Assembly (NCBI RefSeq): GCF_029223585.1
Contig: NZ_CP119423.1
Location: forward strand, 2,542,001 to 2,606,000
Reading direction: 5' to 3'
Origin: Photobacterium sp. DA100
GTDB taxonomy: Bacteria > Pseudomonadota > Gammaproteobacteria > Enterobacterales > Vibrionaceae
DNA: 64,000 nt
Below the pieces are notes generated by a model, which worked only from the letters and a program-made list of their open reading frames with translations, was not told where the DNA came from and ran no database searches. The position numbers and the translations under genes were made by a program. Shown here in pieces: positions 2,056 through 48,230 of this stretch. Positions within the stretch are counted from its first letter, which is position 1; each line of letters begins with the position of its first letter.

Positions 2056-3813
2056 ATGCTGAATACACCAAGACCCTCAGAATTAATGCAGTTGCAACCG
2101 ACTATCCTCCGCTTCACCCAAATGCTGTCGGCGGTGTTGAAAATCGACGCCGAAGTCGTCGATGCCGATTTGGTCAGAATTGCAGGTACTGGTCCCTATA
2201 GTAAGTTTTTTGGAAAAAAGCTAAATACCAGCTCAAGGATTTTCAGGTATATACTTGAAACACATGAAGAAAAAGTTGTCGTCAAATCAAGGACCGATCC
2301 TTTGTGCGAGGGCTGCACCAACAAGAACGGCTGTCGTGAAATGGCCTTCCTCGGTGTGCCGATCATGATTGAGGATCGCTGCCTCGGGGTGATCAGCCTC
2401 GTTGCGTTCAGTGAAGAATCACGCGAGAGGATCAAAGACAATGTCCAGCTTTTCTCTGACTACATCAAACATATTGCCCAAATAGTGGTATCTAAAGTTG
2501 TCGAGAAAAACAGTAATAGTGACAGTCTCGACGAGGTGTTTACCAATCTTATTGAAAACATGGACCAGGGCGTATTAGTACTCGATGAAAACAACCGGGT
2601 AAAATACGGCAACCAGCCCGCCCTCAACAACCTGAATATAACGCAGGAGGCGCTGCACAGCCTTGAAATTAATATTCAGCCACTGTCTCTGCACAACAAT
2701 GAGATGAAGGGCCACCAACAACATATTATTTCACTCGGTGGCCGGCAGGAATTATTAGTCGGGCAGTTTTATAACGCCCACGGCCATCAACTTTTCCTGA
2801 TGGCCTTTCATCAACCTAATAGCGCATTGATGATCCCGGATCATGAGCCACAGTTCGCCACCGTTATCGGCGAATGCAGCAAGATGCGCCAGTTGAAGAA
2901 GCTCATCACCCGCATTGCCAGCAGCCCATCGAGCGTCCTGATCAACGGCGAGAGCGGTACCGGCAAGGAAGTGATCGCCAATGCGGTCCATAACCTGAGC
3001 GATCGCAGCCAGTACCCTTTCATTGCGATCAACTGTGCGGCTATCCCTGATCAGCTATTGGAAAGCGAGTTGTTCGGCTATGTCAAAGGCGCCTTTACCG
3101 GCGCATCTACCAAAGGCAAAACCGGTTTGATCCAGGCCGCCAACAAGGGCACGCTGTTCCTCGATGAAATCGGTGATATGTCGATGACCCTGCAGGCCAA
3201 GCTGTTACGCGTGCTGGAAGAGCGGGAAGTGATGCCGATTGGCTCCAACAAAGCGGTTCCGGTAGATATCCGCATTATTTCGGCCACCAACCGTAATTTC
3301 CAGGAGATGATCGCCACCAACAAATTCCGCGAGGATTTGTATTACCGCCTCAACGTGATCCCTATCCACCTGCCGCCGCTCAAGGAGCGTGAAGGGGATA
3401 TCGCGCTACTGATCAACTATTTCCTCGAGCACCACACCCAGAAAATCGGGGTGACGTACCCGGGGATCAGTGAAGAAGCCATGCGCCGTCTCAATGCCTA
3501 CCACTGGCCGGGCAACGTACGAGAGCTAAGCAACTTAGTGGAATACCTCGTCAATGTTGTCCCTGAAGGTGACCAAATCGACGTCGATTTGCTTCCGCCT
3601 TATTTTGAGCAAACCCCTGAAGCCACAAGTCCGCAGGAGATCTTGAATGACGACTGCTCGATGAGCTTGGAAGAGATGGAAAAAATCCGTATAGAAGAGG
3701 CAATTTCGCGCCTCGGCAACCGCAAGATGGTGGCCGAAGAGCTGGGGATCGGCATTGCGACCTTGTACCGCAAAATCAAGAAATACGGGCTTAGCAACCA
3801 TCGCGCGGCTTAG
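2056..3813 (+). CDS. ygeV: Sigma-54-dependent transcriptional activator, YgeV type
   Basis: 585 aa in the usual order for this class. An N-terminal GAF-like sensor (about 1-155) contains a cysteine cluster, CEGCTNKNGC, near residue 79 that could bind a metal or Fe-S ligand. A PAS-like domain follows (about 170-265). The AAA+ domain (about 275-510) has Walker A GESGTGKE, the sigma-54 contact loop GAFTGA and Walker B TLFLDEIGDM. A Fis-type HTH at the C-terminus reads NRKMVAEELGIGIATLYRKIKKYGL. It diverges from ygeW and ygeX and very probably activates them through the sigma-54 promoter candidate at 1721-1737. Its transcription originally ended at a hairpin now split by an insertion sequence. 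Confidence 0.9.
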   Translation: MLNTPRPSELMQLQPTILRFTQMLSAVLKIDAEVVDADLVRIAGTGPYSKFFGKKLNTSSRIFRYILETHEEKVVVKSRTDPLCEGCTNKNGCREMAFLGVPIMIEDRCLGVISLVAFSEESRERIKDNVQLFSDYIKHIAQIVVSKVVEKNSNSDSLDEVFTNLIENMDQGVLVLDENNRVKYGNQPALNNLNITQEALHSLEINIQPLSLHNNEMKGHQQHIISLGGRQELLVGQFYNAHGHQLFLMAFHQPNSALMIPDHEPQFATVIGECSKMRQLKKLITRIASSPSSVLINGESGTGKEVIANAVHNLSDRSQYPFIAINCAAIPDQLLESELFGYVKGAFTGASTKGKTGLIQAANKGTLFLDEIGDMSMTLQAKLLRVLEEREVMPIGSNKAVPVDIRIISATNRNFQEMIATNKFREDLYYRLNVIPIHLPPLKEREGDIALLINYFLEHHTQKIGVTYPGISEEAMRRLNAYHWPGNVRELSNLVEYLVNVVPEGDQIDVDLLPPYFEQTPEATSPQEILNDDCSMSLEEMEKIRIEEAISRLGNRKMVAEELGIGIATLYRKIKKYGLSNHRAA

Positions 3814-3879: not shown

Positions 3880-5277
3880 TCACAAGTTTTGATGGTCAAG
3901 AGACATTGCTAGCTCATAGCCTTCAAGGATGGTTTGTAACTTGAACCATCCTTCCCATAGGGCTTTCACTGATGCCTTTCCTGTTCGTTTGGTATCTTTC
4001 CATCCCCCCATTCTTGCAAGGTTTTCATAAGCCCAAGATATATTGGGTGGCGACTCGGGAATGGTTTTCTTCTCCATTTTCAACCACAACAACTTCCAAG
4101 CTTGTGTGCTCAATACCTTTTCACAGTTATGATCAGCCTGAGAACACGTTTTTCTCATAAAGCGTAACTGTAATAAACGTGTGGCTATAAATGCTAAAAT
4201 GACGCTTATCCGCTCTAAATTATCTCGACTTTGCATTCTGAGCTCTTCAACTCCTGTCCCCTCACTTTTCCAGACCTTATGGTAGTCCTCAATTAACCAG
4301 CGGTGTTCGTAATAGCTGACAATGCGTTCCGCATCTTCTGCTTTTGTGACCCTTTCAGATGTCAGTAAGTGCCAAGCGAGCTTGTCTTTTCTATCGCCTT
4401 GTTCAACACAACTGACATAATACATAGCGGTATCGGGCTGAGATGATTTATTGGCTGGTGCTTTCAGTGTGACTTTTGCGTACTTGATATCAAGGACGAC
4501 ATCTCTCGCTTTACGTCCCCCTTTTTGAGGTATATGCAAGACTTTAGGCGTCGCATTTTGTAATTGCTCAGCATAGTCATAGAGTTTGTTGTCATGCTCT
4601 TTGATACATCGGCTCTGCATTGAACGCACAACAAATCGTTGATTATTTTGCGCTTTGTACGCCAGATATTCGTAGATATCAGCCTCACGGTCACATACTG
4701 AAATCACTTTATCTATATTAGTGCCTAATCGTTCAACCATGTTCTGAGAGGCCTTTTCCCACTTATAGCTCTCTTTTTCTTTGTAAGGCCGCGAAGCATG
4801 TTGATGTCGCTGGCCTCGTTTCAATATGTCACGGGTCCACATTTGCTGCTCAATTAAGCCAACAATATCGTGGTTTTGTGGAGCAAAAAGCAAAATCGAA
4901 TGTGCCAAGATGGCTCGATTATTATCTCCCTGATTAATATGCCCTAGTTCACCTTTAACCGATTGATGCCTAAAGACTAAAGCGGTTGTATCCTCAAGGG
5001 CGAGTAAAATGGGATGGGTTGCGGCTCTTTGAGCAGTTACTTGAAACCCCGCCTCAGCGATATCTTTTGGTTCGATATGGTCATTACGAATAAACCGGTA
5101 TGCCCCTTCCATATCAGCAGGTGAGAGGGATAATTTTGACACAGCAACTCCTGGCTGTTGAGCAAGTGAAGCCGCTAAAGAGACTAAACGCTGAGTTCGT
5201 CTAGGGTCGTTGAGGTTAGCTTGCCCAAATTGCATATCTGCCCATTGTTCATGAGTATTTTTATCCATCTTAATCAT
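3880..5277 (-). CDS. IS4-family transposase (IS50/Tn5-like)
   Basis: 465 aa, close to the 476 aa of Tn5 transposase, and uninterrupted. The N-terminus carries the Tn5-like DNA-binding region (WADMQFGQANLNDPRRTQRL). The DDE catalytic residues are recognisable in LALEDTTAL, in VCDREADIYEYL and in the YREK-type signature YEHRWLIEDYHKVWKSEGTG. The C-terminal part corresponds to the dimerisation domain. The start could be the ATG at 5277 or the in-frame ATG three codons later, which has GGATGATTAAG before it. A 20-bp palindrome ends two bases upstream of the first ATG and may hide the ribosome binding site. By eye the codon use is more A/T-rich than in the neighbouring genes, which suggests transfer. 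Confidence 0.93.
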   Translation of the reverse strand: MIKMDKNTHEQWADMQFGQANLNDPRRTQRLVSLAASLAQQPGVAVSKLSLSPADMEGAYRFIRNDHIEPKDIAEAGFQVTAQRAATHPILLALEDTTALVFRHQSVKGELGHINQGDNNRAILAHSILLFAPQNHDIVGLIEQQMWTRDILKRGQRHQHASRPYKEKESYKWEKASQNMVERLGTNIDKVISVCDREADIYEYLAYKAQNNQRFVVRSMQSRCIKEHDNKLYDYAEQLQNATPKVLHIPQKGGRKARDVVLDIKYAKVTLKAPANKSSQPDTAMYYVSCVEQGDRKDKLAWHLLTSERVTKAEDAERIVSYYEHRWLIEDYHKVWKSEGTGVEELRMQSRDNLERISVILAFIATRLLQLRFMRKTCSQADHNCEKVLSTQAWKLLWLKMEKKTIPESPPNISWAYENLARMGGWKDTKRTGKASVKALWEGWFKLQTILEGYELAMSLDHQNL

Positions 5278-42572: not shown

Positions 42573-42586
42573 TTGATTAAAATCAA
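42573..42586 (+). promoter_or_regulatory. Perfect FNR box upstream of the reductive dehalogenase operon
   Basis: TTGATTAAAATCAA equals the FNR consensus TTGAT-N4-ATCAA without mismatch. If centred at -41.5, transcription would start near 42621 with a 73-base leader before the TPR gene at 42694. It points to activation of the operon without oxygen. Confidence 0.75.
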
Positions 42587-42693
42587 CATTGTCAGCAAAG
42601 GGCATTTTTCTACCCAAAACGGGGAGATTTGTACCTTTTGACCATTTGCCGTATCCACAATACTTGAGCTGATCTTTCTCCAAGGACACCCGA

Positions 42694-43833
42694 ATGATTA
42701 GCAGTAAGTGGATTGAGCTCTACCAATATATCAAGAAACAGATCACGCAGTTCCCTGATCCTGCCGACGTACTCGCACCGCTCAACGAGCGTCTGCTGTT
42801 TTTACAAGTACAGTTTCCCAAGCAACAACAGCGCCAGCAAACAAGCTGGGAGAGCGAAGACACCCAAGGACATAGCCATGCCGACTGGTTAGAACATGAA
42901 GCCTTTACGTTAATCATGAGTGACATCGTGGCTACACACAGGCTTAGCCCAGCCCAGCTGAAATTCCTGTTCGAAACCCTGATGGCCGCCCAGATGTGCC
43001 AGCTTGCCATGGTAACCATCAATAACCATAAGCCCCTGCTCAGCGAAGAAGAATTCAAAACCTGCTGCGGGTTGGTCTACCAGCAGTTGGGCGATTACGA
43101 AATGGCAAAATCGATGTTCGAAGAGTCGATAGCCCTCAATACCCACAATCCCCTGCTGCACTGCCACCTCGGCTTTAGCCATCTGTATCTGGGTCAAAGC
43201 GAGTTGGCCGAAGAGAGCTTCAAGCGCAGTATCACCACCGACCCTGACTTTATCGGCGGCTACCAGAATCTTGCTGGCCTTTATTACCAAGAAGGCAACT
43301 TCGCGTTGGCAGCACAATATGCCGAACAGGCCTACAGCAAAGATCATTCGCTGGTTTCTACCTACATCACCGCCACCAGCAGTTACCTGGCGCTGGGGGA
43401 GAACGTTCAGGCTGATAAATGGATCACCCGCGCCTTCGAAAACCAGGTTTCATCGTTCGAGCTGGTGCGATTGGCTGGCATCTGTGCCCACCAGCAAGGC
43501 AGACTGGAAGAAGCGCTTGAAGCGTTGGACCAATACCTAAGCGTACACCCTAGCAATTTCGATGTACTCAACATCCGTGCCCGCATCAAAGCCGAGCTCA
43601 ATCTTTTTGACCAGCTCGAGCCTGATCTCAAACAGCTACTGACCCTCGAACCGCATGAAGAATGGAGCCTCGAGCAACTTTTCCTTTGCTATTTCCATAG
43701 CGGGCAATGGGCCGAGGCCCAGCACATTATGGTCGAACTCAACAAGCTATCCGGCCATTACAAAGTTACTCACCGAGCGCTCATCAATACCATCAACAAG
43801 AAACTGAGCCTCGATATCGTCGAATTAAACTAA
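42694..43833 (+). CDS. TPR protein, first gene of the rdh operon
   Basis: 379 aa, soluble and without signal peptide. A poorly conserved N-terminal part (about 1-125) is followed by five to six tetratricopeptide repeats: FKTCCGLVYQQLGDYEMAKSMFEESIALNTHNPLLHCHLGFSHLYLGQSELAEESFKRSITTDPDF, GGYQNLAGLYYQEGNFALAAQYAEQAYSKD and QQGRLEEALEALDQYLSVHPSNFD. The gap to rdhA is only 16 bp, so the two are co-transcribed. A cytoplasmic TPR protein here could be a chaperone that holds the dehalogenase while cofactors are inserted before Tat export; this is inference. It is not the usual trigger-factor-like RdhT. Confidence 0.75.
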   Translation: MISSKWIELYQYIKKQITQFPDPADVLAPLNERLLFLQVQFPKQQQRQQTSWESEDTQGHSHADWLEHEAFTLIMSDIVATHRLSPAQLKFLFETLMAAQMCQLAMVTINNHKPLLSEEEFKTCCGLVYQQLGDYEMAKSMFEESIALNTHNPLLHCHLGFSHLYLGQSELAEESFKRSITTDPDFIGGYQNLAGLYYQEGNFALAAQYAEQAYSKDHSLVSTYITATSSYLALGENVQADKWITRAFENQVSSFELVRLAGICAHQQGRLEEALEALDQYLSVHPSNFDVLNIRARIKAELNLFDQLEPDLKQLLTLEPHEEWSLEQLFLCYFHSGQWAEAQHIMVELNKLSGHYKVTHRALINTINKKLSLDIVELN

Positions 43834-43849
43834 TACACAGGGAGCAAAC

Positions 43850-45364
43850 GTGAGAGAAAAAACCGAACAAGGCGTTGCCAGTACATCGCGACGCGACTTC
43901 CTCAAACTTGGTGGTGTTGCGGCAGCCACTGCCACCGTGGGTGCCGCCGCCGGTGCAGGTTTTGTACTGGGCCGTGACCCAGATGCCAACGTCGGCTGGG
44001 GTCGCACCGAAGCGGGCAAAGATATGTATTTCAACCGCGAGCCTTTCCGGGTCGATGTCGCCCCGACAATGGAAGTGGTCAGCGAGCCCGTCCGTCCTGA
44101 ATGGAGCGACTTCCTGTTCCACCGCACCCGTGCACTGGGCAAAGAGATGGGCAACGGCTGGGTACCCACTAAGGATTGGCGTGATATCCCCAATGAGCAG
44201 GTGCGTGAGTACTACTCCCGCCACCCAGAACGCTGGGACGATATGTACCAGTCATTTGAAGAAAAGGCCAAGCACGACCAGAACATCGAACGACACCGTG
44301 ACCGCTTTGCCCTCGCTTGGGCCTATTCTGCGGCTTACTTGAAGGGCAATAGCAGCAACTTCCCTCCGAAGCCCAAAGGCCACCCCGATGAGGTCGATTT
44401 CCAGTGGGTCAAGCGTGAGCCTCAAGCCTTTAAATCGCCTAAACACGCCTCAGAGCTGATCAAGAAAATGGCGTTCAAGTTCGGCATGAGCATTGTCGGC
44501 ATCACCAAGCTGGACCCGAGCTTCGTATTCAAAAACACCATGCGCGGTATGCCCGACTGGGACGAGAGCATTCCGAAACACTGGAAGAATGTCATTATCT
44601 TCGGTACCCCAATGAACTGGGACCCGATGTATGCTTCTATCGGCTACTCTACCTCCTATGACGGCTATTTCCGCGCCAAGAATGCTTCGGGGCTGATGGC
44701 AGCCTTCCTGGGTGAACTGGGTTACGCGGCCCGGCCACAGTGGCCGGGTTCGGACTATGAGATCGTCGTGCCGCCACTGGCAATTCAGGCCGGTATGGGC
44801 GAAGCCGCCCGTAACGGTATCCTGCTGACCCCGGAGCTGGGTCCGAATATCCGCCTTGCCGCCGTGATCACTGATTTGGATATGGAGCCTGACAAGCCGA
44901 TCGATACCAAAGTGAAACACTTCTGCGAAGAGTGCAAAATCTGCGCGGACTCTTGCCCGAGCGGCTCGATCAGCAAAGCTGATAAACCCGATGCCGTCGT
45001 GCGAGGCTATCGCAAGTTCGACTTCAACCAGGACAGTTGCTGGACCATGTGGCGCCAGGGTCCAACGGAGACCGCCATGGGGTGCAGGGTCTGTATCGCG
45101 GTATGCCCATATACCCGCAAGAACAACTGGATCCATGCGCTGGTCAAGGAGACCGACCCGCGAGATCCAACCGGCTTGACCCGCAAAACCTTGTTGGCGA
45201 TGCAGCATAACTTCTTCTATTACCCAGAGGCAGAAGCCTACCACGGCGACTGGAACGGCGGGCGATTTGCAGGCTACCACCAACCGCCGGAGTGGCTACG
45301 CAGCGAGGATTACCTCCAGGTCAAGAAGACCTGGGACTATGACGGCAACTGGGAGGGCTTCTGA
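43850..45364 (+). CDS. rdhA: Reductive dehalogenase catalytic subunit
   Basis: 504 aa. A Tat signal with twin arginines 14-15 (SRRDFLKLGG) sends the folded enzyme across the inner membrane. A corrinoid-binding reductive dehalogenase domain follows. Near the C-terminus are two [4Fe-4S] sites: CEECKICADSCP (Cys359, 362, 365, 369), then Cys397 with CRVCIAVCP (Cys412, 415, 419). The enzyme removes halogen from organic compounds using electrons from the quinone pool and a cobamide. The related QueG is unlikely, since QueG has no Tat signal or membrane partner. The next gene (rdhB) overlaps the stop by one base. The substrate cannot be inferred. Confidence 0.9.
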   Translation: MREKTEQGVASTSRRDFLKLGGVAAATATVGAAAGAGFVLGRDPDANVGWGRTEAGKDMYFNREPFRVDVAPTMEVVSEPVRPEWSDFLFHRTRALGKEMGNGWVPTKDWRDIPNEQVREYYSRHPERWDDMYQSFEEKAKHDQNIERHRDRFALAWAYSAAYLKGNSSNFPPKPKGHPDEVDFQWVKREPQAFKSPKHASELIKKMAFKFGMSIVGITKLDPSFVFKNTMRGMPDWDESIPKHWKNVIIFGTPMNWDPMYASIGYSTSYDGYFRAKNASGLMAAFLGELGYAARPQWPGSDYEIVVPPLAIQAGMGEAARNGILLTPELGPNIRLAAVITDLDMEPDKPIDTKVKHFCEECKICADSCPSGSISKADKPDAVVRGYRKFDFNQDSCWTMWRQGPTETAMGCRVCIAVCPYTRKNNWIHALVKETDPRDPTGLTRKTLLAMQHNFFYYPEAEAYHGDWNGGRFAGYHQPPEWLRSEDYLQVKKTWDYDGNWEGF

Positions 45365-45669
45365 TGTTTCCACAATCAACAATACTGGATCCGTTGTTCT
45401 GGATGGCATTCGGCGCTTTACAGGTACTGGTCTTTGCCGGCGCCAACCAATGGGCCAAGCAATTTAAACTGGGGATGAACTGGTGGAAATGGACACTGGC
45501 CGGTACCTGGTGGGCCTCGATCATTCTCACCATTGCCGGGGCATTTACCCTGTTGGGTGAAAACGAGGGCCTTGCCGGTTGGTACTTCCTCGGGTTTGTC
45601 GGCACCGGCCTCGTTATCGCAGGGGCAGTCCTGCTAAGAGTACTCATCGCCCTGAAGCCGAAGCACTGA
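45364..45669 (+). CDS. rdhB: Reductive dehalogenase membrane anchor
   Basis: 101 aa with three membrane helices (PLFWMAFGALQVLVFAGANQW, WKWTLAGTWWASIILTIAGAF, GWYFLGFVGTGLVIAGAVLLRVLIAL). Its length and shape are those of RdhB proteins, which hold RdhA on the outer face of the inner membrane. ATG overlaps the rdhA stop (TGATG). Sequence conservation in this family is low, so the call leans on topology and on its position directly after rdhA. Confidence 0.85.
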   Translation: MFPQSTILDPLFWMAFGALQVLVFAGANQWAKQFKLGMNWWKWTLAGTWWASIILTIAGAFTLLGENEGLAGWYFLGFVGTGLVIAGAVLLRVLIALKPKH

Positions 45670-45726
45670 GTCGCTAGTTCTGAATACAGCGCTAACCTAT
45701 TTTGATCACAGTATGATAGGAATAAG

Positions 45727-45755
45727 CCATGAGGCATCGGATCGATGCCTCATGG
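45727..45755 (+). promoter_or_regulatory. Strong hairpin between rdhB and rdhC
   Basis: CCATGAGGCATCG and CGATGCCTCATGG form a perfect 13-bp stem around GAT, ending just before the rdhC ribosome binding site GGAG. No T run follows, so it probably stabilises the upstream rdhAB message or tunes rdhC translation rather than ending transcription. Confidence 0.6.
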
Positions 45756-45767
45756 CTTTGGAGATAT

Positions 45768-47048
45768 ATGGAAAGAAAGACCAAACCTCGGCGTAATAGC
45801 CGCTTCGACAAATTTGTGAGTGTTATCTCTATCTTGGCTTTGGCGTTTGCATGGTACCTCGGCGGGCAGCGCACCAACCATTCCCAAACCCAGTTCTTCG
45901 ACAGTATCCTCGCCAGCGGCGAACAGCTTATCGAAGTGGCTCCCCTGCTCTATCAAATCGTACCGAGTGTTGAGAACAACCCTGCGCCAGAAACTACCCA
46001 GGATACGAGCAAGTGGGTCAGCTTCGGCACCGGCGTTGGCTACGGCGGCGAGTTAACCATCGGCGCGGTCTTTTCCCATCAAGGGGAGATAGAAACCATT
46101 GCCTTGCTGGGCTCTAAAGAAACAACCTCTTATTTTGACAAAGTGGCCGAGCAGAAACTGCCCGAATCATTGCTGGCCCAGAATATCAAAACCGCATTGT
46201 CTGTAGATGCGGTATCCGGCGCCACCCTGACTTCGAAGGCCTATACCCAGGCATTGAACCAAGCGGCCGATCCGATCCGGCTGCGGCTATTTGGCTACCA
46301 GTTTACCGAGGCCAAGCCCGCGTGGCATTACCTGAAATGGCTTGATGCTGCGGCCCTGCTATTTTTCGTTGCGGCAGTCTGGGTTAGCCGCACCCGCTCT
46401 GAGCACAAGAGCAAAATGAATGCCGTGCTGCTGGCTGGCTCTACCCTGCTGTTTGGCTTCCACTCCGCGTCACTCTATTCGGCTTCCACCATGGCTGGAT
46501 TAGTCTCCGGCACCTGGCTCAGCGGTGTCGCCAATTACACGCCATTTATTCTGCTGATGCTGAGCATTGGCTGTATCCTCTACTACAACCGGAACGTGTA
46601 TTGCCAGAGCCTCTGCCCATTCGGTGCCGTCCAGCAATGCCTGGCCAAGGTCGGCAAAGCCAAAGCGTCACCGATACGCCGTTCACTGTTTATCTGGTTT
46701 CCCCGCTTCCTGCTGCTGGCCACCCTCTGTCTGGGGGCTTATTTCCGCAACCCTGCCGCCTTTGTCTACGAGCCCTTCGGCATCGCCTTTGGCATGATCG
46801 GCGGTATGTACCTGTTTATCCTAACTGTGATGATCCTCCTAACCTCATTAATCGTCCGCCGTCCTTGGTGCCAAAGTTTGTGTCCGATCAATACCTTAAC
46901 TGACTTTGTCGTTTTCAATAAGCAGTGGATCAAACAGGCTGCCAAGCCTCGCAAGCGGCGACAAGGCATGGCCAAACGAACGGCACCAAAACAAATCGCA
47001 GCGGAAGACGTACCTACTCGCCATGAACATACTGGAGGCCACCGATGA
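45768..47048 (+). CDS. rdhC: FMN- and Fe-S-binding membrane protein, RdhC/NosR type
   Basis: 426 aa from the ATG at 45768 (GGAG nine bases upstream). The first helix is SVISILALAFAWYLGG. A periplasmic FMN-binding domain has the covalent flavin motif SGATLT at 150-155. Four to five helices follow. Two cytoplasmic cysteine motifs, YCQSLCPFGAVQ and WCQSLCPINTL, resemble those of NosR/NirI/RdhC polyferredoxin-like proteins, though each has only two cysteines. The tail is very basic. The protein may pass electrons from the quinone pool to RdhA or help its maturation. It is co-transcribed with rdhAB. Confidence 0.87.
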   Translation: MERKTKPRRNSRFDKFVSVISILALAFAWYLGGQRTNHSQTQFFDSILASGEQLIEVAPLLYQIVPSVENNPAPETTQDTSKWVSFGTGVGYGGELTIGAVFSHQGEIETIALLGSKETTSYFDKVAEQKLPESLLAQNIKTALSVDAVSGATLTSKAYTQALNQAADPIRLRLFGYQFTEAKPAWHYLKWLDAAALLFFVAAVWVSRTRSEHKSKMNAVLLAGSTLLFGFHSASLYSASTMAGLVSGTWLSGVANYTPFILLMLSIGCILYYNRNVYCQSLCPFGAVQQCLAKVGKAKASPIRRSLFIWFPRFLLLATLCLGAYFRNPAAFVYEPFGIAFGMIGGMYLFILTVMILLTSLIVRRPWCQSLCPINTLTDFVVFNKQWIKQAAKPRKRRQGMAKRTAPKQIAAEDVPTRHEHTGGHR

Positions 47049-47269
47049 GACAGCGTATTTCCCTCGTATTTTATTGCCTGGCTTCTGTTGTCATCATGCT
47101 GCAAATCAGTGCCAGCTTCATGGCCCTGAGCAGTGATGCACCTCAGCGCTCGATATTGCACAGTGTGTCACGCCAGACCGAGCCGACGGCCAAGACCACG
47201 GAGCTCAACAGCGCACCAAAAGTCGACTTCCGGCAAATGGCTAACGATTTGACGCAAGAAAAATACTAA
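47045..47269 (+). CDS. Small membrane or exported protein at the end of the rdh operon
   Basis: 74 aa. The start overlaps the rdhC stop (ATGA). One N-terminal hydrophobic segment (ISLVFYCLASVVIMLQISASFMAL) acts as anchor or signal, followed by a polar tail of about 45 residues with no cysteine. I do not recognise the family. Tight coupling to rdhC suggests a part in the same membrane complex. Confidence 0.6.
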   Translation: MRQRISLVFYCLASVVIMLQISASFMALSSDAPQRSILHSVSRQTEPTAKTTELNSAPKVDFRQMANDLTQEKY

Positions 47270-47315
47270 AGCGAGCAGCAAGCACCTCTGCTACGCCGCA
47301 GTTTCCATGGAGTGT

Positions 47316-47345
47316 AAGGGCTTGGCCGAACGCCAAGCGCCTTTT
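47316..47345 (+). terminator. Probable terminator of the rdh operon
   Basis: AAGGGCTTGGC pairs with GCCAAGC-G-CCTT (one bulged G) around CGAAC and is followed by TTTTGTAA. It lies between the small membrane protein and the chosen AraC start, which also argues against an AraC start at 47307. Confidence 0.6.
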
Positions 47346-47357
47346 GTAAAGATAGAT

Positions 47358-48230
47358 ATGACTAGCAAGTGCATCCCTCTCGAGCGCCTGAACAGAGAAG
47401 TGAACCTGATTAATCCCTTTATCAACAGGATTTCAGATCTCTATACCCTAAGGGGTTTAGAGACCGTTTCCAGGCCACACCGGCTTAACTTCAGTGCATT
47501 GATCTATATCACCGAGGGCCAAGGCGTGCATTACGTCGAACACCAACAGCATCGACTGCGTACCGGATCTATGCTGATACTGGGCAAGAACCAGATCCAT
47601 GCCTTTGCCAAACAGCGTGCGGTCGATGGCTACGTGCTTTCGTTCGACTGCAGCTTTCTGTCCAGTGGCAATACCGATCCCTACTTCGATCTCTTGCTCA
47701 CCGCCATGGGCCACATTAATTGCGTCCACCATGTCGATGACGATATCGGGCTACTGTTCAATGCCATGGTCAATGAGTTTGCATCGACCTCTGAATTCAA
47801 AGACGAGATCATTCGCAATCTGATCCGGTCCATCATCCTCAAAGCCGTGGTACCCAGCTACCAGCAACAATTGCAATCCACCCAGCGAATTGGCCACAAC
47901 GACTATTACCGGCTGAAAAAATATATCGACGAGCATTTCCAGCAAAGACCGACAGCAGGGGAAATCGCGCTGGCATTGGGCAAAAGCATCAAGCAGCTGG
48001 ACAAGCTTGCCAAGGATCACGCCTGCCTCAGTGTCAAAGAGCTCGTCGATGAACGGGTCCTGGTTGAGGCCAAGCGCCTGTTGGCCTTCAGCCAGTATTC
48101 GATTTCCGATGTGGCCAACCGGCTCGGTTTCAACGAAGCCACCAATATGACCAAATTCTTCAAGCGCCATACCGATGTCAGTCCCAAGGACTTCAGGCAG
48201 CTGTGCAAGATGGGGCTACACCAGAAGTAA
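47358..48230 (+). CDS. AraC-family transcriptional regulator
   Basis: 290 aa. The ATG at 47358 lies past the hairpin; an ATG at 47307 would add 17 residues but has no ribosome binding site. An N-terminal cupin-like sensor (LNFSALIYITEGQGVHYVEHQQHRLRTGSMLILGKNQIHAF) is followed by the double HTH (about 195-285), with RPTAGEIALALGKSIKQLDKLAKDHACLS and ISDVANRLGFNEATNMTKFFKRHTDVSPKDFR. It follows the rdh genes on the same strand and may sense a halogenated substrate and control that operon; this is inferred from position only. Confidence 0.82.
   Translation: MTSKCIPLERLNREVNLINPFINRISDLYTLRGLETVSRPHRLNFSALIYITEGQGVHYVEHQQHRLRTGSMLILGKNQIHAFAKQRAVDGYVLSFDCSFLSSGNTDPYFDLLLTAMGHINCVHHVDDDIGLLFNAMVNEFASTSEFKDEIIRNLIRSIILKAVVPSYQQQLQSTQRIGHNDYYRLKKYIDEHFQQRPTAGEIALALGKSIKQLDKLAKDHACLSVKELVDERVLVEAKRLLAFSQYSISDVANRLGFNEATNMTKFFKRHTDVSPKDFRQLCKMGLHQK

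Follow-up and report, generated by a model that had tools for sequence, protein, structure and literature searches.

What does a set of reductive dehalogenase genes do in a Photobacterium, and which signals turn it on? The question is raised by a block of genes in a 64,000-nucleotide stretch of the genome of Photobacterium sp. DA100 (6.01 Mb, two contigs), hereafter the window, in which an earlier note had described a five-gene operon under anaerobic control. Our analysis places the product of rdhA in the reductive dehalogenase family; cobamide binding and halide release are predicted for it by homology. Judging from the promoter and its conservation among relatives, we consider it probable that TPR–rdhA–rdhB–rdhC–small membrane protein–araC is a dehalogenase system transcribed only when FNR, signalling the absence of oxygen, and an AraC-type regulator bind together. 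The locus comprises the following features.

42573–42586, + strand: FNR box TTGATTAAAATCAA, an exact match to TTGAT-N4-ATCAA, centred at about −93 from the predicted start site
42600–42614, + strand: first half of a tandem operator, GGG-N8-TACC, defined by comparison with relatives
42621–42635, + strand: tandem operator, second half (21-bp period), a predicted AraC-type site
42638–42643, + strand: predicted −35 element TTGACC, with ACCTTTTGACC kept in many relatives and variants in others
42661–42666, + strand: weak −10 candidate TACTTG, 17-bp spacer to the −35
42694–43833, + strand: TPR protein, 379 amino acids, Pfam TPR match
43850–45364, + strand: rdhA, catalytic subunit with a twin-arginine translocation (Tat) signal, two [4Fe-4S] motifs, Y273/R335 and a TIGR02486 match
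45364–45669, + strand: rdhB, membrane anchor with a GENEG (EXE) loop
45724–45758, + strand: hairpin between rdhB and rdhC, with no clear T-run, recognized by folding and covariation
45768–47048, + strand: rdhC, membrane flavoprotein with the flavin mononucleotide (FMN) motif SGATLT and two CX3CP motifs
47045–47269, + strand: small membrane protein, 74 amino acids, present in 17 of 31 related loci
47307–48230, + strand: AraC-family regulator, cupin plus helix-turn-helix (HTH); best NCBIfam match HpaA, below cut-off

RdhA scores 168 bits on TIGR02486 (cut-off 160.35) and 55.2 bits on the QueG model TIGR00276 (cut-off 200), and a separate QueG gene (254 bits) lies elsewhere in the genome. The Tat motif SRRDFLK, with its PF10518 match, and the Fer4 matches bear out the Tat signal and both Fe-S motifs noted earlier; C359, C362, C365, C369, C397, C412, C415 and C419 are invariant. 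With residue numbers counted by hand, Y273 aligns with PceA Y246, and R335 with PceA R305 and NpRdhA K488. PceA and NpRdhA are closer in likeness to RdhA than QueG is. A QueG or other non-dehalogenase identity was rejected on family scores, structure and R335, so that the earlier assignment to the dehalogenase family stands. It is very improbable that RdhA is a cobamide/Fe-S reductase of this family acting on a non-halogenated substrate. Close relatives are indeed often named just 4Fe-4S dicluster protein or epoxyqueuosine reductase, but QueG is a separate gene here, the catalytic Tyr/Arg pair is as in PceA, and bacteria with relatives from the same clade debrominate bromophenols, which induce their RdhA genes (PMC6299228; this and the other articles are cited from excerpts throughout).

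The phylogeny points to a substrate. In a core-domain tree of 36 sequences (LG+G4, ultrafast bootstrap [UFBoot] support; rooted on QueG, and hence itself no evidence against QueG), the window RdhA shares a group of UFBoot 88 with RdhAs named for three bromophenol-respiring marine Deltaproteobacteria, H. marinisediminis, D. kysingii and D. spongiiphila, and is 46–48% identical to proteins so named. This group is nested in a 23-member clade (support 99) separate from the PceA-like family, which holds the proteins called PceA in Vibrio sp. RC586 and P. aphoticum; no protein named for Shewanella sediminis was found among the 120 matches listed. In the excerpts of PMC6299228, H. marinisediminis, D. 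kysingii and D. spongiiphila debrominate bromophenols and do not act on 2,6-dichlorophenol, and 2,6-dibromophenol as sole acceptor supports growth of H. marinisediminis, D. kysingii and D. bizertensis. H. marinisediminis has a single RdhA gene, induced up to 400-fold, whose product we infer to be P0034 (named for that species, with 48% identity to the RdhA of the window). D. kysingii carries a pair of RdhA genes, of which one is not induced, and D. spongiiphila carries three; P0056 and P0043, respectively, would each be the product of one of these. Bromophenols, the guess of the earlier note, fit this clade (PMC6299228) and are the likely substrate on phylogenetic grounds.

The five genes and their spacing are as previously given: a 16-bp gap separates TPR from rdhA, rdhA and rdhB overlap by 1 base, and rdhC and the small membrane protein gene by 4 bases. 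To these the AraC-type gene at 47307–48230 is added as a sixth member, which the earlier note lacked. For rdhC, a start at 45768 is likelier than one at 45729, because the ATG at 45729 falls within the hairpin and because the RdhC of L109, the sole relative compared, aligns from residue 1 at 45768. The family motifs uphold the identities proposed for rdhB and rdhC. RdhB is a small membrane protein encoded beside rdhA whose GENEG loop is invariant in 12 of 12 aligned RdhBs. RdhC carries SGATLT and CQSLCP twice, matching the published definition of [ST]G[AS]TX[ST] plus two CX3CP motifs (PMC5928378), and these motifs recur in all 27 RdhCs from the related loci that cover 85% or more of the query. 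The TPR protein is modelled by AlphaFold2 as a superhelix (predicted local distance difference test score 92.0). The 74-residue membrane protein encoded at 47045–47269, between rdhC and araC, is without a family match and is a possible extra membrane subunit.

A genome scan yielded 31 related loci, labelled Photobacterium, Vibrio, Aliivibrio, Enterovibrio, Shewanella, Psychromonas, Ferrimonas and Endozoicomonas. Wherever a locus holds enough sequence (29 loci; L038 and L052 begin inside rdhA), a TPR match adjoins rdhA, in 25 cases with an identity of at least 34%, and an AraC-family match is present in 30 of 31 loci; both are large families, which makes the weaker matches soft evidence. The AraC-type protein itself scores 94 bits on the HpaA model (cut-off 274.65). 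Between 37272 and 52183 of the window, the genes flanking the operon on both sides, from LacI to DUF1302, occur in the same order in P. lutimaris (L022). Because flanks mostly differ in the other loci, the operon occupies different genomic places.

The operon is preceded, at 42573–42586, by the perfect FNR box reported earlier. TTGATTAAAATCAA is the sole exact TTGAT-N4-ATCAA in the window; with up to one mismatch there are eight sites, against a shuffled mean of 2.70, and 1 of 100 shuffles reached eight. Counted from the start of the box (position 0), GGG lies at 27, TACC at 38, GGG at 48 and TACC at 59, followed by TTTTGACC. The half-sites thus form a direct repeat of 21-bp period that begins 13 bp beyond the box and adjoins the TTGACC −35, with a predicted start site near 42673. 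Eighteen relatives aligned on the FNR box share this GGG/TACC plan with single-base variants. A box with at most one mismatch occurs in 19 of 26 upstream regions, compared with a maximum of 2 of 26 (mean 0.53) for 19 permuted palindromes. Among 31 operator sites surveyed (the window and 28 loci, with three sites in L041), 19 have such a box, its start 27 bp upstream of the first half (26 bp in L047), and a further four, all from Endozoicomonas, have a box with two mismatches at 27 bp. One of these genomes, Endozoicomonas ascidiicola (L041), contains two pairs of rdhAB genes alongside a TPR–rdhC–PFOR unit (PFOR, pyruvate:flavodoxin oxidoreductase), with operators at 3742, 5779 and 8085, each 27 bp downstream of an FNR-like box with two mismatches.

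For the repeat, an operator matrix built from the window and 14 Vibrionaceae loci was tested on 14 others that had been held out, and found the promoter site as the top match in 11 and as the second in two (L034, L044); it missed it in one (L043). Apart from three loci considered below, the promoter sites in the other ten score above the range of 54 Markov controls (nine of the loci served as their source), which have a median of 5.6 and a maximum of 11.7. In L034 the top match (15.6) is on the opposite strand, at 4539. An operator-like site in L037 lies at 4524, some 90 bp upstream of the LysR gene that belongs to a divergent second rdhA unit; its score, like that of a similar site in L046, stays within noise. 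With the first matrix, sites near 11090 in L032 (13.1), L033 (22.7) and L048 (17.5) fell inside a 355-residue reading frame and were set aside as background; L048, a near-duplicate of L033, was excluded from the second matrix and its test. A 7-2-7 NarL/NarP site was rejected, since it fits some relatives and not the window, the constant feature being the 21-bp direct repeat. In the whole 6.0-Mb genome the two-half core has one exact match; the idea of several operator sites was rejected, as cores with up to three mismatches (424) are not commoner than in the reversed control (747).

These features are those expected of an FNR regulon member, with a canonical FNR gene in the genome (NF008365, 511 bits) and a consensus site at a fixed place in relatives, and of AraC control, with half-sites about 21 bp apart beside the −35 and a linked araC gene. 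The anaerobic control proposed in the earlier note therefore holds as regards the box and the FNR gene, but is only half of the predicted logic, because an AraC-type operator adjoins the box. A direct repeat of 21 bp is typical of AraC-family sites. We think it unlikely that the box is read by another CRP/FNR protein (CprK-like, or CRP) or the repeat by another regulator, with signals other than oxygen and a halophenol. The box is the FNR consensus, and one of the two PF00325 proteins in the genome is the canonical FNR (proteins matching only PF13545, the other Crp HTH model, were not searched for). The AraC gene is conserved with the operon, with a LysR gene directly downstream in L022 and L029 only, and the repeat is AraC-like in period. 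What speaks for a different reader is that a CRP/FNR-type protein, RdhK, controls rdh genes in Desulfitobacterium and Dehalobacter (PMC6299228), and that the three Shewanella loci have a CRP-like half-site in place of the FNR box. In these loci (L034, L037, L046) TGTGA lies about 56 bp before the operator, at one fixed distance, and CRP possibly takes the role of FNR there.

The composite promoter, defined as FNR box, both halves and ACCTTT with at most one mismatch, occurs in 27 of 329 Vibrionaceae genomes and in none of the 329 as a reversed control. RdhA, at E 1e-20 or better, is found in 34 of the 329: 30 carry a close match (best segment at least 58% identical) and four a distant one only (36% or less). 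Of the 27 promoters, 20 begin 1.25–1.30 kb before the rdhA match, with the TPR gene in between in named loci, five precede a separate rdhC gene and two precede operon remnants; 25 of the 27 genomes carry RdhA. The remaining two (G021, G079) have no RdhA at this threshold. G021 has fragments of TPR and araC flanking genes that look by eye like transposases, and what is left in G079 is, by eye, the TPR start, with no further match to operon genes. The two remnants, whose composite promoters lie at L104:5176-5241 and L105:9051-9116, look like operon losses. The earlier note had called the system unusual. The contrast with strict anaerobes, which most described organohalide respirers are, is sound (PMC7031245), but rarity within the family is not, given the 34 genomes. 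Since 2018 it has been on record (PMC5928378) that rdhC occurs in Vibrio, Photobacterium and Ferrimonas.

Within the operon, the 106-nucleotide gap between rdhB and rdhC folds at −38.0 kcal/mol, and a hairpin forms in all 19 such gaps folded (the window and 18 loci; no shuffle control). In 12 gaps picked as alignable (the hairpins of L028–L030, L032 and L048 differ in sequence), 92.4% of cells pair, compared with 82.7% in shuffles and at most 59.8% in slid controls. Six of 11 pairs change on both sides, and the 18 covarying cells exceed the shuffled mean of 5.6 (0 of 500 shuffles); the number of additional pair types does not stand out clearly from shuffles (80 of 500). We read the hairpin, on the analogy of pceABCT (PMC10624902), as a putative mRNA 3' stabilizer or partial terminator that would yield less rdhC than rdhAB.

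BtuB is full length (537.7 bits). Of 243 riboswitch candidates in the genome 150 were scored, and the only cobalamin riboswitch among them stands ahead of BtuB. CobS and BtuR are neighbours, each above its cut-off, and CbiC has no match in the host genome; cobamide uptake and salvage are therefore predicted. This is also the outcome for the cobamide source that the earlier note had advised seeking. CbiC occurs at E 0.001 in 10 of 52 genomes of the genus, with eight strong matches (E < 1e-70), three of which fall among the genus's 14 RdhA genomes. D. kysingii likewise needs supplied cobamide (PMC6299228). MenA and TatC are present. The genome has no second, PceT-type trigger factor, its sole Trigger_N match lying outside the operon at C1:2837521.

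In the genomes with a separate rdhC (G027, G043, G107, G259, G288), the next gene encodes PFOR, confirmed in G259 by hidden Markov model (TIGR02176, 1519.5 bits, cut-off 911) and judged in the other four from matching N-termini; in G107 it is split into two reading frames. A flavodoxin gene follows in four of the five, the G043 contig ending inside PFOR, and the G259 flavodoxin is above the TIGR01752 cut-off. In two Endozoicomonas loci (L040, L041), PFOR with 56% identity to that of G259 comes after rdhC; flavodoxin (49%) is visible in L040, and L041 ends inside PFOR. Among the relatives fetched, seven have rdhC then PFOR, with a flavodoxin gene visible in five. Such rdhC–PFOR–flavodoxin operons, with the FNR and tandem-repeat promoter, were seen at L109:2443-10703 and in L110, L106, L107 and L108; in G107, the divergent TPR–rdhA–rdhB operon has, by eye, an FNR box and repeat of its own. 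No PFOR or flavodoxin match was found in the window; the rest of the host genome was not searched.

Just upstream of the rdhC–PFOR–flavodoxin operon in G259, and likewise in G288, is an ABC (ATP-binding cassette) transporter with a BtuC-like permease. For the ATPase and the binding protein of G259, models of heme transport give the higher scores, all three components being below curated cut-offs; the transporter upstream in L109/L110 is of B12 or heme type.

The gene order suggests that, in relatives, RdhC is coupled to low-potential electrons derived from pyruvate. The rdhC–PFOR–flavodoxin genes there share the composite promoter or directly follow rdhAB. We tentatively propose, as a reading that may well be wrong, that RdhC is a membrane conduit passing electrons from PFOR-charged flavodoxin across the membrane to RdhA, a pyruvate-driven dehalogenation under one FNR/AraC AND-gate, with electrons of a potential low enough for the cobamide. 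Searches of the open-access literature listed no report of an rdhC–PFOR operon. The same operons suit fermentative electron disposal, and so bring in the possibility that RdhA dehalogenates as detoxification or as an electron sink, with no net energy gain. The host is probably a facultative heterotroph with other energy routes, and the remnants in G021 and G079 suggest that the operon is dispensable. We take this alternative seriously but lean away from it, as the quinone-pocket residue H429 and the RdhB EXE motif are conserved, MenA is present, and members of the clade's host species grow when 2,6-dibromophenol is the only acceptor (PMC6299228).

In the system we favour, FNR would bind under anoxia and the linked AraC-type regulator, likely a halogenated-phenol sensor, would bind the tandem repeat, giving araBAD-like AND control. 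By homology, Tat would export RdhA carrying cobamide and two [4Fe-4S] clusters, and RdhB would fix it to the membrane on its outer side. Electrons from menaquinol, from RdhC or from both would reduce the cobamide, and a halogen would be removed, most likely bromine from bromophenols, possibly with some gain of energy. The TPR protein would serve as a cytoplasmic, RdhA-specific maturation helper, the hairpin would keep rdhC expression below that of rdhAB, and cobamide would be taken up and remodelled rather than synthesized de novo.

Several observations weigh against the dehalogenase system under FNR/AraC control. RdhA passes TIGR02486 by less than 8 bits, and a Pfam scan of it returns Fe-S and Tat matches only. 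The group with the Deltaproteobacteria has a support of 88, and four divergent Photobacterium/Vibrio RdhAs (P0017, P0018, P0020, P0023), some of them from the same gene block, are placed beyond it by weakly supported branches (56, 30). Eight of the 31 operator sites (three Shewanella, two Ferrimonas, three Photobacterium) have no FNR box, and the operator scores of L042 (9.4), L049 (8.9) and L044 (10.0) lie inside the Markov control range. The matrix gives no match in L043; a degenerate repeat followed by TGTTGACCA is visible there by eye and was not counted. The composite promoter is unmatched in five of the 30 close-RdhA genomes (G017, G025, G085, G088, G289). In the window the −10 is poor, for which reason the promoter is predicted to be activator-dependent, and a generic promoter scan did not report it. 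BtuB is below both curated cut-offs (537.7 against 599.7 bits for one).

If the favoured reading is correct, ordinary facultative marine bacteria, including animal-associated ones such as Endozoicomonas and Enterovibrio, can also dehalogenate anaerobically as a regulated side-respiration, one probably aimed at natural bromophenols. The composite promoter is a searchable marker, and the rdhC–PFOR–flavodoxin operons make the role of RdhC and the source of low-potential electrons for cobamide testable in fast-growing hosts. What is new is the control logic and the partners of RdhC, the presence of the genes being already known (PMC5928378). Searches of the open-access literature listed no report of AraC/FNR control of rdh genes in marine Gammaproteobacteria. 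An AraC-family regulator is among the genes restricted to organohalide-respiring Sulfurospirillum (PMC8865925).

Two-signal control of this kind would be unlike the RdhK/CprK, MarR, sigma54 and two-component schemes described in the literature excerpts consulted. The nearest known systems are the clade 5 clusters of marine Deltaproteobacteria (PMC6299228), which share with the window an RdhA of 46–48% identity, the Tat signal and a TPR-protein gene, the last likened by family name. Those clusters have a sigma54-dependent activator, whereas the window has an AraC-type gene, an FNR box, the tandem operator and a TTGACC −35. The pceABCT operons of Desulfitobacterium and Dehalobacter (PMC10624902, PMC5928378) likewise combine RdhA, a three-helix RdhB with EXE and an RdhC with FMN and CX3CP motifs, and pceC is expressed well below pceAB, as the hairpin would predict for rdhC in the window. 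The window differs in having a TPR protein in place of an adjacent PceT-type trigger factor, in its RdhA clade, and in its promoter, that of D. hafniense pce being transposon-borne and constitutive.

A second, PceA-type RdhA family in Vibrio, Photobacterium, Shewanella and Ferrimonas belongs to the same superfamily and overlapping genera, but is 29–30% identical to the window RdhA and forms a separate clade. Its genes lie beside the operon in five loci, divergent and on the other strand (L034, L037 and L046 from Shewanella; L042 and L049 from Ferrimonas), and behind a LysR gene in L037. In promoter architecture, the closest likeness is to E. coli araBAD, which also has a CRP-family site near −93 and half-sites 21 bp apart with the second beside the −35; the window has an FNR box in place of the CRP site, a different half-site sequence and a different type of gene to control.

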